This document shows, one piece after another, positions 49,333-53,445 of a DNA stretch of 64,000 nt. Below the pieces are notes generated by a model. It searched no databases, was not told the origin of the DNA, and saw only the letters and a list, made by a program, of their open reading frames with translations. Where the stretch lies: contig NZ_CP066776.1 in NCBI RefSeq assembly GCF_010681825.2, positions 186,001 through 250,000 of the forward strand. Reading direction: 5' to 3'. The position numbers and the translations under genes were made by a program. Every line of letters begins with the position of its first letter. Position 1 is the first letter of the stretch. This DNA comes from Sulfuriroseicoccus oceanibius (GTDB taxonomy: Bacteria; Verrucomicrobiota; Verrucomicrobiia; Verrucomicrobiales; SLCJ01).

Positions 49333-50277
49333 CTACTTTGCCAACGCGCTCTGGATCGCTTTCACAATCCGCGGGTCACTCACCTCGGTCCGGTCAAAAA
49401 GAGCCAACACGAAGTTCTCCGCCATGATCTCCTCCGGGTGAATAATGTAATTGGTATTGCGCCCCACCTGTTCGAAGAAATTCCCGACCTCTGCCACATC
49501 CAACACCTCGGCCTTTCCATCGACCATTCGAGGCTTCAGTGACTCGTCCAAGACGAGAAACCCGATCCGCAAATACTCGAAAAAGCTCCCCCCGCGGTAG
49601 TCCTCCTCCGAGTACATCACCATCATCGCCTTGATCTCCTGCCCACCACGCATCAGCTCAATGTAACAATCCGTCTGAGGCGCGTCCGGGTTGGTAATCC
49701 GCCGCTCTTTCAACCCCTCCGGATAGTCAATTGAGGGCATCATCGAGAACCCAATGATGCCATACATCGCCCTCCGGAAATCCTCTGCGTTGCGGGACAA
49801 CACGTGAAAGACCTCGTGCGCCACGAGGTGTTCCAGCCGCGCATCGCTCATCTCATCCAAGCGAGCCGTCAGCACAATGTAATCCTGCCGGGTGTAACCA
49901 GCAGCCCCGCCTTCCTCGCGCATCGACGTTTTCACAAAACGTATCCGATCCGGAATCGGAAGTGACGTCCACCCACGAAGAGCCGCCTCTTCATCCATCT
50001 TCTTCAGGATCGCGCCAATCCGCTCGCGATCCCGCACGCTCCACGGCAGCACCTGTTCCGCCGCAAACGCACGCCATTCCTGCTGCGTTCCGCCCGCCTT
50101 GCCCACTCTCGACTCGGTATCAAACCGACTCCAGCAGCGCATGTATTCGTCCTCGACCCCGAGCAGCGCCCGTCCCTCATCCACCGAACAAAACCGGCTC
50201 GCCTCCGCCAGGGAATCCGCGGCAGCAACCCCACACCAGCTCCAAAACGCCACCACCAACACGATCAACCTTTTCAT
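49333..50277 (-). CDS. Secreted protein with HExxH motif, probable metallopeptidase
   Basis: A 314-residue protein with a signal peptide (MKRLIVLVVAFWSWCGVAAA) when started at 50277; the ATG at 50322 would hide it. The segment RLEHLVAHEVFHVLSRN contains H-E-x-x-H, and EEIMAENFVLALF about 115 residues later could supply the third zinc ligand, as in gluzincin-like families. Otherwise I do not recognise the sequence. It may be a peptidase that acts in the periplasm or outside; activity is not certain from the motif alone. It is divergent from the first of three secreted paralogues. Confidence 0.68.
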   Translation of the reverse strand: MKRLIVLVVAFWSWCGVAAADSLAEASRFCSVDEGRALLGVEDEYMRCWSRFDTESRVGKAGGTQQEWRAFAAEQVLPWSVRDRERIGAILKKMDEEAALRGWTSLPIPDRIRFVKTSMREEGGAAGYTRQDYIVLTARLDEMSDARLEHLVAHEVFHVLSRNAEDFRRAMYGIIGFSMMPSIDYPEGLKERRITNPDAPQTDCYIELMRGGQEIKAMMVMYSEEDYRGGSFFEYLRIGFLVLDESLKPRMVDGKAEVLDVAEVGNFFEQVGRNTNYIIHPEEIMAENFVLALFDRTEVSDPRIVKAIQSALAK

Positions 50278-50608
50278 ACGAGACGAGACCATGGCCGGTG
50301 GGTCAGCGACCAGCAAGATCAATCCCGCTCAAGCCCCCTGCCAAAAAAACGCCCCCCCTGCGCGCCAGCCCCCGCGTCTTACGATTTTCTATAAAAGGCG
50401 AGCCAAACTGTAACTTGTATAACCACTACAATTCACACCTATGAGAAACCCGCTCTAAATTATAAATCACTGCATCTCAAGAGGTTCCCTCATCCCGTAA
50501 TCAGAAATCAGCAAGGGGTCAATGGCTCCTGCCGCGGTCAGCTCGTGCCACCATTCGCGACCTGACCTCTCCCCCGCAGGATGGAATCCCTTCCCCCCCG
50601 CATCCGCC
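50278..50608. other. AT-richer divergent promoter region
   Basis: A 331-base gap between divergent secreted-protein genes. The stretch 50393-50470 is clearly richer in A and T than its surroundings (TTTTCTATAAAAGG, TTGTATAACC, CTAAATTATAAATCAC) and is the likely place of promoters in both directions. I cannot assign -35 and -10 boxes with confidence. Confidence 0.4.
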
Positions 50609-51334
50609 ATGAAAAATGCACCCTTTCTCACGTCAATATTGGCTCTAGCAGCCTGTATCCCCACCTTCGCCAACGAAGAGGAAGCCAATCAGAACGACTG
50701 GATCGGCGAAATCTCCACCCCGAACGAAACCGTTCAAGTCGGGGCCGTGCCGTCAATCACGTGGAACGTGACCTACCCGCTCACCATCGACGACCTGATC
50801 GTTATCACCGGCACCAATATCACCACAAAACAACAAGTGGTGATGGAAGTCCGCCTCATCGGCGCCGGCTGGGGACTTAAGGAGAACTTCCACTACGTGG
50901 ACAGCCACATGGACCTGGGCTCCGGTTGGACACAGATCTTCTTCGGTGACCACCACATGGTCAATGCTTCGGAAGTTATCTACAGCGAGCCCCTCCCCGC
51001 CGGCACCTCAATCGACTTCGGCGGACGCGGCGGCAAGGACAAGCCCGGCCCCAACCCCAACCAATGGTCCGATTGGTTCAAATCCAACAAAATCAAAGGA
51101 CCAAATGTGGTGACTCTGCTCAATGGAGACCCGGCCCCCCAGTACGACCCCGCATTCGATATCCAAACCGCGGTCGAGGACTACCTCACCCCCTACGTCA
51201 ACACGACCACCGAGACGATTACCCTTGGCCCTTTCCAAGTCATCTATCTCTTCGATTTCAACACCTTTGGGACCAAGTGGTACGACCTGCAAGACACCGG
51301 CATCATCGTCACCTTCTCGGTGATCACGACCTAA
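50609..51334 (+). CDS. Secreted protein of unknown family, paralogue 1
   Basis: A 241-residue protein with a signal peptide (MKNAPFLTSILALAACIPTF, cleavage near FAN). The mature part is beta-rich and acidic. Features shared with the next two genes: N-W-(I/V)-G near the mature N terminus, VQVG-VPS-TW-V-YP (about 42-57), VRLIGAGWG (81-89), FHYV, FFGDHHM (111-117), GRGGKDKPGP, PQYDPAFDIQTAVEDYLTPY (178-197), ITLGP-VIYLFDF and TKWYDLQD (222-229). No known domain is recognised. The composition fits a surface, pilus-like or lectin-like protein, which is speculation. Confidence 0.75.
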   Translation: MKNAPFLTSILALAACIPTFANEEEANQNDWIGEISTPNETVQVGAVPSITWNVTYPLTIDDLIVITGTNITTKQQVVMEVRLIGAGWGLKENFHYVDSHMDLGSGWTQIFFGDHHMVNASEVIYSEPLPAGTSIDFGGRGGKDKPGPNPNQWSDWFKSNKIKGPNVVTLLNGDPAPQYDPAFDIQTAVEDYLTPYVNTTTETITLGPFQVIYLFDFNTFGTKWYDLQDTGIIVTFSVITT

Positions 51335-51437
51335 AGCCCCCTCGGCAACCACACACTCCCGGCAACCACGCCCTCCCGCCGCGCTGACCTCCCCCCCTGG
51401 AGTCATTCGCGCCCCCTATCCCCCGCCCCCGTATCCC

Positions 51438-52172
51438 ATGAAGCATTCCCTTTTTGTGAAATCACTGGTCGCTCTCACTGCGACTCTTCCCGCCCTCGCA
51501 AGCGAAACCGACACCAACAACTGGGTCGGTTCAATCTCAGCGTCCCAGCAAGTCGTCCAAGTGGGCGACGTACCGACAGTCACGTGGGATGTGAAATATC
51601 CAGCCGCCCTGCTGGACCTCGTTTCTCTGGACGAGAATACCGCCACCTCCAAGAAAACGATCGAAATGGAAGTGCGCGTCATCGGAGCCGCCTGGGGAAA
51701 AACAAGGAGCTTCCATTACGTTGAAGGGCAAATCCAAGCTGGCGCCGGATGGCTCCAGATCTTCTGGGGGGATCATCACATGATCGACTCGTCGAAAGTC
51801 GTCTACCAAGCGACGCTCCCCGTCGACACAGTGATTGATTTCCGCGGCTGCGGCGCCAAGGACAAATCAGGACCATTCGCATCCAGCTGGTCCCCTTGGT
51901 ACTCCACCACGGACGTGACGCCTCATGTCGTTTTGCTCAAAGACGGCGATACCGCCCCCCACTACGACCCCGCATACGAAATCCAGGACGGCGTACAGGA
52001 CTACCTTTCCCCATACATCGACGGCAACACGGGGCTCATCACCCTCGGTCCGCGCGACGTGATCTATCTCTTCGAGTTCGCCGAGGGCTCGTTCGGAACC
52101 AAGTACTTCGACCTTCAGGACCTGGTCGTCGTCGTGACCTTCTCCGAGTCCGATCAACAACCCAATCCCTGA
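51438..52172 (+). CDS. Secreted protein of unknown family, paralogue 2
   Basis: A 244-residue homologue of the preceding gene, 103 bases downstream. It has a signal peptide (MKHSLFVKSLVALTATLPAL, then AS). It keeps NNWVGSISASQQVVQVGDVP, VRVIGAAWG, FHYVEG, FWGDHHMIDSSKVVY, GAKDKSGP, PHYDPAYEIQDGVQDYLSPY, ITLGPRDVIYLFEF and KYFDLQD. It is the most diverged of the three in its middle. The invariant Trp, His, Asp and Gly positions suggest a common ligand-binding or folding core. Confidence 0.75.
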   Translation: MKHSLFVKSLVALTATLPALASETDTNNWVGSISASQQVVQVGDVPTVTWDVKYPAALLDLVSLDENTATSKKTIEMEVRVIGAAWGKTRSFHYVEGQIQAGAGWLQIFWGDHHMIDSSKVVYQATLPVDTVIDFRGCGAKDKSGPFASSWSPWYSTTDVTPHVVLLKDGDTAPHYDPAYEIQDGVQDYLSPYIDGNTGLITLGPRDVIYLFEFAEGSFGTKYFDLQDLVVVVTFSESDQQPNP

Positions 52173-52243
52173 TCCCCCTCCCTGTTCCACCAAGCACCTT
52201 CAAATTCTCATAAGAATCACAAATCGCTCACCCAACCATACCA

Positions 52244-52279
52244 ACTCAAATTCTCGGATATGAGAATTTGAGTAGTTTT
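52244..52279 (+). terminator. 12-bp perfect hairpin after paralogue 2
   Basis: ACTCAAATTCTC pairs perfectly with GAGAATTTGAGT around a six-base loop (GGATAT), followed by AGTTTTC. It is unusually A/T-rich for this genome. It is best read as a terminator of paralogue 2; it could also be an operator for paralogue 3, which starts 150 bases later. Confidence 0.6.
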
Positions 52280-52430
52280 CGCCAAATCATGCGTCTCCCA
52301 TTCCGCAGCCCGGTTCGTAACGCACAAATGGCACGTCCCCCTCGGTCGGCTAACCGCTGCTTTTGAATCACTATTCCCCCCACCCTACCCGGCCACAGCG
52401 CCTTCATCCCCCTCGAAGTACCCTCTCTCC

Positions 52431-53153
52431 ATGAAAAATCCCCTTGCGATCGCATCCGCCGCAATCCTTTCAATTCTCCCCGCCGTCGCCGCTGATGACG
52501 CCAACCAAAACAATTGGGTCGGCAACATCACCGCATCCGAGCAAGTCGTTCAAGTCGGCAACGTGCCATCGGTCAATTGGGATGTCAGCTACCCGCTCGG
52601 GCTGGCGGATCTCGTCACACTGAAGGACAACTCCATCACTACGAAAACCGAGGTGGTCATGGAGACCCGCATGATCGGCGCGGGCTGGGGGCTTAAGACA
52701 AACTTCCACTACGTCGAGGGCAAGATGCGGGTAGGCTCCTCGTCATTCTTCGAAATCTTCTATGGAGACCACTGGATGATCGACTCGTCAAAGGTCGTCT
52801 ACACCAACACACTCCCCGCCGGCACCGTGATCCATTTCTCCGGACGCGGAGCAAAAGACAAATCCGGTCCTTATTTCTCGCAATGGTCGTCATTGTTCAC
52901 CACTGAGTTTGCAACTCCCAACATTGTCACACTGACCAACGGAGATCCTGCTCCGCAATACGATCCTGCATTCGATATCCAGATGGCGGTCGAGGACTAC
53001 CTGACCCCGTACGTCGATACTCAAACGGGACTCATTACTCTTGGACCACGCGATATTATCTATCTCTTCGATTTCAACTCGTACGGCACCAAGTGGTACG
53101 ACCTGCAGGACATGGGCATCCTCGTGACCTTCACGGAGAAAGAGCAGAATTAA
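52431..53153 (+). CDS. Secreted protein of unknown family, paralogue 3
   Basis: A 240-residue homologue with a signal peptide (MKNPLAIASAAILSILPAVA, then AD). It is closest to paralogue 1: TRMIGAGWGLKTNFHYVEG, FYGDHWMIDSSKVVY, GRGAKDKSGP, PQYDPAFDIQMAVEDYLTPY, LGPRDIIYLFDFNSYG and TKWYDLQDMGILVTF. The three genes form a tandem array in one orientation, each separated by 100-260 bases and apparently with its own signals. A strong terminator follows this last member. Confidence 0.75.
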   Translation: MKNPLAIASAAILSILPAVAADDANQNNWVGNITASEQVVQVGNVPSVNWDVSYPLGLADLVTLKDNSITTKTEVVMETRMIGAGWGLKTNFHYVEGKMRVGSSSFFEIFYGDHWMIDSSKVVYTNTLPAGTVIHFSGRGAKDKSGPYFSQWSSLFTTEFATPNIVTLTNGDPAPQYDPAFDIQMAVEDYLTPYVDTQTGLITLGPRDIIYLFDFNSYGTKWYDLQDMGILVTFTEKEQN

Positions 53154-53211
53154 TACTATATAAATCCCAGCTCCGCGCGGCATATCAAGCGGCCGCGGAC
53201 TGATTCATTCA

Positions 53212-53240
53212 AACCAGCGGATTCGTCCGCTGGTTTTTTT
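53212..53240 (+). terminator. Strong terminator closing the paralogue array
   Basis: AACCAGCGGA / TCCGCTGGTT stem with a TTCG loop and a run of seven T residues, 58 bases after the stop of paralogue 3. Confidence 0.9.
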
Positions 53241-53282: not shown

Positions 53283-53445
53283 CGCACCGCCGCACCGCCG
53301 CACCGCCGCACCGCCGCACCGCCGCACCGCCGCACCGCCGCACCGCCGCACCGCCGCACCGCCACACCGCCACACCGCCACACCGCCACACCGCCACACC
53401 GCCACACCGCCACACCGCCACATCGCCACATCGCCACATCGCAGC
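53283..53445. repeat. 9-bp minisatellite (CACCGCCGC / CACCGCCAC)
   Basis: About 18 consecutive 9-bp units: first CACCGCCGC, then CACCGCCA variants, ending in CATCGCCA. It is open in several frames on both strands (Ala/Pro/His/Arg or Cys/Gly-rich), which is an artefact. It sits in the gap between the secreted paralogues and argB. Confidence 0.92.

Follow-up and report, generated by a model that had tools for sequence, protein, structure and literature searches.

Three consecutive genes in a 64,000-nucleotide stretch of the Sulfuriroseicoccus oceanibius genome (the window) encode secreted paralogues that an original prediction, made from the letters alone, could not connect to any known family. 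To what family, and to what cellular structure, do these proteins belong? A predicted lectin fold, combined with the near-constant presence of pilus-initiation genes beside their relatives, suggests that they are probably sugar-gripping pilus tips. The explanation to which we lean is that the trio proteins have a calcium-lectin fold and that such proteins normally form the sugar-gripping head of a tip complex on a type IV pilus or related pseudopilus.

An array of three intact secreted paralogues

The array, in which the family is hereafter called A, comprises the following features.

50609..51334, + strand: family A paralogue 1, 241 amino acids, signal peptide
51438..52172, + strand: family A paralogue 2, 244 amino acids, signal peptide
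52244..52273, + strand: hairpin with a perfect 13-bp stem, located between genes 2 and 3 (z -5.9; T run weak)
52431..53153, + strand: family A paralogue 3, 240 amino acids, signal peptide; the protein used for modelling
53211..53240, + strand: intrinsic terminator closing the array, hairpin AAACCAGCGGATTCGTCCGCTGGTTT followed by a T run at 53211-53236 (-20 kcal/mol, z -6.9)

The tandem arrangement first proposed was confirmed: all three ORFs are intact and lie on one strand, each gene has its own spacer (103 and 258 bp), and the proteins share 58% (1 and 3), 58% (2 and 3) and 49% (1 and 2) identity. Paralogue 3 as a query recovered the other two at E-values of 1e-91 and 5e-89, far beyond chance. 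An alternative in-frame ATG lies upstream of paralogue 1 at 50522 and is the less likely start. All three proteins begin with a Sec-type signal peptide, ending by our reading of the sequence in A-x-A-like sites (TFA/N, ALA/S and AVA/A), instead of a prepilin leader (G^xxxxE plus a hydrophobic helix). Values of dN/dS were 0.24-0.38 within the trio, where dS is about 1 and close to saturation, and 0.04-0.16 when close orthologues outside the window were compared; given these low ratios, the trio genes are under purifying selection. The strong terminator that had been placed after gene 3 is likewise borne out, and the second hairpin, which had gone undescribed, is a possible partial terminator or attenuator.

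An 8-bp tandem repeat of about 20 copies (CACCGCCA/CACCGCCG) occupies positions 53285-53442, between the array terminator and argB. On the minus strand at 49333-50322, divergent from the array, lies the gene of a secreted protein that contains an HEVFH motif and matches Zn-protease families below threshold (eCIS_core, 4e-4; DUF2268, 5e-4).

A family unrecognised in sequence

Pfam and NCBIfam, searched with the trio and with family alignments, yielded no family and only chance-level matches, each in a single member (CBM_2, E 0.076; CtaG_Cox11, E 0.009), and a sequence search of the PDB gave no match. A confident profile match to a characterised family, which the original prediction had offered as its own refutation, was not found either. 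Its description of an unrecognised family therefore stands for sequence, and is superseded by links through fold (LecB/DUF4114-like) and through a minor-pilin operon. Two members matched phrog_23810 in PHROGs at 3e-5, which could reflect low-complexity tails. PLSDB gave no match, leaving plasmid carriage unsupported.

Family A was present in 74 of 289 sampled Verrucomicrobiales genomes, about a quarter of a sample that is uneven and partly composed of MAGs. The named hosts are Luteolibacter, Haloferula, Roseibacillus, and Akkermansiaceae or Verrucomicrobiaceae MAGs. Nearly invariant across the family are D224, Q226, D227, an acidic residue at 214 (E/D), G83, G171, G205, P175 and W152 (numbering of paralogue 3, as in the modelled protein), and Gly, Trp and Phe are frequent among the conserved positions. 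The motif blocks first listed had been drawn from the trio alone, and their fates differ: the core of KWYDLQD (D224, Q226 and D227) is family-wide, and FFGDHHM and RG-KDKSGP are confined to the window's lineage. An enzyme reading was rejected, as members beyond that lineage do not keep the HH of FFGDHHM. Of the site proposed from conserved residues, the Asp marks a likely binding site (identical in 63/63 members, as detailed below), and the His and the catalytic reading found no support.

A tail of the form GHGNNxDGVDSSNPG...DDE, seen at L068, L049, L138, L149, L156 and other loci, is present in 17 of 57 family proteins and also in other pilus-operon proteins; in L084 it is placed inside the lectin-like domain. 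At L058 and L059, long ORFs run into the family gene as if fused to its N-terminus, but these upstream frames are probably spurious; a candidate relative, G542 (E 2.5e-4), was discarded as a weak match at a place where the long ORF lies on the opposite strand.

A predicted calcium-lectin fold

An AlphaFold2 model of paralogue 3, built from a 59-row family alignment, reached a pLDDT of 82.7 and a pTM of 0.76, against a pLDDT of 29.5 for a single-sequence model of a family protein. The predicted domain and loops are as follows.

52605..53144, + strand: LecB-like beta-sandwich domain, paralogue 3 residues 59-238 (from the model; about 60 residues inserted compared with LecB)
51284..51295, + strand: D-L-Q-D, predicted calcium loop of paralogue 1
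52110..52121, + strand: D-L-Q-D, predicted calcium loop of paralogue 2
53100..53111, + strand: D-L-Q-D, predicted calcium loop of paralogue 3, including D224, Q226 and D227

In VIA-align, the first 14 ranks for this predicted model were all LecB/PA-IIL-type lectins (Z 10.3-8.6, rmsd 2.5-3.2), led by LecB/BC2L-A (Z 10.3, rmsd 2.5 A, 114 of 127 residues aligned). The lectin thrombocorticin took the next three places (Z 8.2-8.0), and the remaining matches, to unrelated folds, had Z of 5.5 or below. Foldseek with the same model returned nothing below E 0.001; in its viral library (BFVD), the three best matches were DUF4114 proteins. The fold of the trio is therefore predicted to be that of a LecB/DUF4114-like calcium lectin.

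The likeness to LecB, PA-IIL and BC2L-A (PF07472) extends to an acidic residue and a D-x-[NQ]-D loop before the last strand. In LecB, Ca2+ is bound by Asn21, Glu95, Asp101, Asn103 and Asp104, and Asp96 and Asp99 bond the sugar (PMC8752737). By motif alignment, as opposed to superposed coordinates, four of the ligands have a match in the family, namely Glu95, Asp101, Asn103 (as Gln) and Asp104; Asp96, Asp99 and Asn21 have no conserved or obvious counterpart. D224, Q226 and D227 are identical, and position 214 is acidic, in 63/63 members, including relatives fused to pilins; position 222, which the motif alignment sets opposite Asp99, is Gly in 51/63. From this pattern we infer a putative calcium site of LecB type with an altered sugar pocket. 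The two groups differ in other respects: identity is 9%, the family carries the insert and the Gln, and the chain end of LecB, whose Gly114 carboxylate completes the neighbor's site, is replaced by other C-terminal residues, with extensions of more than 100 residues in some members.

Resemblance to DUF4114 (PF13448) lies in the same position of the loop, its E-D...D-x-D-F-N-D corresponding to the family's E...D-L-Q-D, and in a collinear global profile alignment. The global score of that comparison, 13.2, exceeded 100 of 100 block-shuffles, and its local score was reached by 13 of 100. No family member attains the curated Pfam score, D-x-D-F-N-D is not kept, and the family's own conserved N-G-D-x-P-P...E-x-F-L-x-P-Y has no clear DUF4114 counterpart; PA-IIL and DUF4114 models gave no match to 59 members up to E 10. 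We regard homology to DUF4114 as suggestive on these profiles.

Relatives lead a minor-pilin operon

Iterated neighbor profiles showed that in Verrucomicrobiales the family gene comes first in an operon of order A-B-C-D-E-F, in which B and C are secreted proteins and D, E and F are prepilin-like. Downstream sequence of 5 kb or more was available at 34 loci; in these, B and C each followed A on the same strand in 33, D and E in 25 and F in 24. At three loci (L081, L044 and L062), D-E-F lies instead upstream of A-B-C, divergent on the other strand, and in L083 A and C are fused in one protein with a plausible start. Co-occurrence across the 289 genomes is near-complete: C accompanies A in 73 of 74 genomes (Fisher p 4e-40) and F in 72 of 74 (p 6e-37), a statistic that ignores shared ancestry.

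The leaders of D and E carry the G^xxxxE prepilin motif, and E weakly matches N_methyl and TIGR02532. F is large with a pilin-like start and no Glu, in that respect GspK-like. Although the pilin scores of all three fall below curated cut-offs, their sequences suggest prepilin-like proteins of the GspI/J/K or PilV/W/X kind, which would prime a filament. In L154, a T2SSE/PilT-like ATPase follows F (E 1e-43; PilT identity judged from sequence).

A further tie comes from seven more distant sequences of the phylum, which have a prepilin-type N-terminus (e.g. FSIVEVIVVCAVVAILASLIM) with a lectin-like half behind it. All contain D-x-Q-D, and their starts are plausible; L111 barely meets the DUF1559 cut-off, and L110 and L111 match GspG weakly. 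Since the domain is fused to a prepilin, it is placed on a filament in those relatives.

Amplification of A and possible exchange of the operon head

The host genome, a single contig of 3.5 Mb, holds two further copies of A, at 658 kb and 1513 kb, that the original prediction did not cover. Each of these stands in an A-B-C set; a B-C pair lies at 2.88 Mb and D-E-F stands separately at 1.84 Mb, and the genome has seven T2SSE matches. The window array itself is A three times over, with no B-F adjoining. In the tree the trio forms one clade (SH-aLRT 93) adjoining the other two copies of its own genome, and it carries lineage-specific inserts; this position points to local amplification, and the trio is a lineage-specific triplication of A alone. 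Copy number in relatives, proposed as a check, proved variable: the nearest genus-mate has a single copy, L057 has three in tandem, and L090 and L085 have two each. Dosage or antigenic diversity had been suggested as the purpose of the array, and such recurrent tandem or repeated copies fit a varied adhesin. As the trio stands without B-F, its tie to pili rests on paralogues and relatives, and as the genome encodes B, C and D-E-F at other sites, the trio could use them in trans.

C and F occur together in 106 of the 289 genomes, and in 34 they are present without A. At three of the four such loci that we read (L153, L154 and L155), a different secreted protein sits directly upstream of B. The B-C pair at 2.88 Mb of the host genome (L149) is preceded by a 363-residue secreted protein of a different kind (L149:9750-10841), with a 261-residue secreted protein between the two; relatives of the latter stand upstream of a family gene at 13 other loci. 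None of the proteins in the A slot at these loci received a convincing Pfam assignment. Some of them end in a segment resembling, by eye, the start of A.

52518..52592, + strand: N-terminal segment of paralogue 3 (residues 30-54), G-x-I...V-x-x-G-x-x-P-x-x-x-W-x-V

Segments of this appearance were also seen by eye in other pilus-operon proteins of relatives. A regular expression for the shared form, G-x-[LI]...P-x-x-x-W-x-[VI], matched A alone, so the likeness is a lead only. From the gene arrangement, A looks like an exchangeable head of the tip module.

Phage-borne copies

Seven IMG/VR contigs carry A. Deposited phages (INPHARED) held no match to A, and the phage assignment thus rests on these metagenomic contigs. 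L094 and L096 bear T4-type replication genes (single-strand binding protein, primase, exonuclease, clamp loader and DNA polymerase), and L093 has phage-type nucleotide kinase and exonuclease genes. The phage copies take two positions in the tree, next to different bacterial lineages, which makes at least two captures likely; T4-like phages have apparently acquired A at least twice. The L094 and L096 copies gave a dN/dS of about 0.1, both against a bacterial copy and against each other. At L094:4116-5942, a T4-type 5'-3' exonuclease runs in frame into the family gene, signal peptide included, a join that is a fusion, a readthrough or a sequence error. Some phages are known to exclude others by means of proteins that block type IV pili (PMC8764522); that phage-borne A has such a role is speculation.

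Weighing the explanations

Under the sugar-gripping tip explanation, A would be exported by Sec through its signal peptide and assembled with B and C on a minor-pilin tip. E/D214, D224, Q226 and D227 are predicted to hold Ca2+, and the head to bind sugar on a surface or in exopolysaccharide. The window trio would probably supply alternative or additional heads, working with B, C and D-E-F encoded elsewhere.

The same genes could belong to a type II secretion pseudopilus, with A, B and C as dedicated exported substrates or a tip cap and no retractable pilus. D, E and F do resemble GspI/J/K in pattern (Glu at +5 is present in two and absent from the large third), their weak best matches include XpsI, GspI and GspH, and the pilin-fused relatives match GspG best; but the PilT-like ATPase after F in L154 and the setting of the domain on a filament in the prepilin fusions speak against it, and we judge it distinctly unlikely. 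A doubtful though still credible alternative makes A a structural module of the tip, a spacer or docking piece stabilised by Ca2+, whose lectin fold binds no sugar. It would account for invariant metal-side residues beside missing counterparts of the sugar-contacting Asp96 and Asp99, and for the many conserved Gly, Trp and Phe; yet the genomes with C and F but no A, where other secreted proteins fill its slot at the loci read, and the repeated amplification of A are what one expects of an exchangeable adhesin and not of a fixed part.

The trio alone may also have left the pilus system, its products acting as free secreted lectins, either matrix cross-linkers or anti-phage decoys. The lack of B-F beside it and its monophyly on an insert-bearing branch of its own favor such a departure, against which stand the partner genes elsewhere in the genome, and we think it rather improbable. 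Returning to the sugar-gripping tip, a broader version may be offered tentatively, and we would not bet on it: Verrucomicrobiota would possess a tip system in which an exchangeable cassette head, a LecB-like lectin in some genomes, an unrelated secreted protein in others and several tandem lectin paralogues in the window, precedes a fixed B-C-D-E-F, and T4-like phages would have captured the lectin at least twice, possibly altering host pili and excluding other phages.

Precedents and significance

DUF4114 binds mannose in the Acanthamoeba MBP adhesin (PMC11934332). In Myxococcus it makes up the N-terminus of PilY1.1 on type IV pili, where mutation of the calcium site abolishes colony motility (PMC9109919). 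PilY1.1 and PilY1.2, like family A, show a calcium-lectin-like domain in association with the minor-pilin genes of type IV pili (PMC9109919, PMC13190605); the association is seen in relatives at about 25 of 34 loci and is absent at the window array. The family domain differs in being free-standing or fused directly to a prepilin, and lacks the PilY1 beta-propeller: the 240-residue proteins are modelled as a beta-sandwich and have no Pfam match. The modular minor pilins of Streptococcus sanguinis (a lectin or VWA on a pilin), cited in PMC9109919, resemble by description the distant fused relatives; they belong to another phylum, and the Verrucomicrobiales lectin-like protein has its own gene. 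Given the DUF4114 and PilY1.1 precedents, the idea that a pilus tip may bear a LecB-like domain is already known. The family is new in sequence, and its fold and the lectin-on-pilus idea have precedents. Our literature searches found no description of the family, its free-standing form, the operon or the prepilin fusion, and no paper devoted to minor pilins in the phylum Verrucomicrobiota.

These results give a testable role to an unannotated family found in about a quarter of sampled Verrucomicrobiales genomes, and suggest that type IV pili of Verrucomicrobiota have a compact tip module, A-F. The phage-borne copies raise the question of phage manipulation of pili. Lectin-tipped pili, if true, would suggest how these bacteria hold on to one another or to surfaces rich in glycans.
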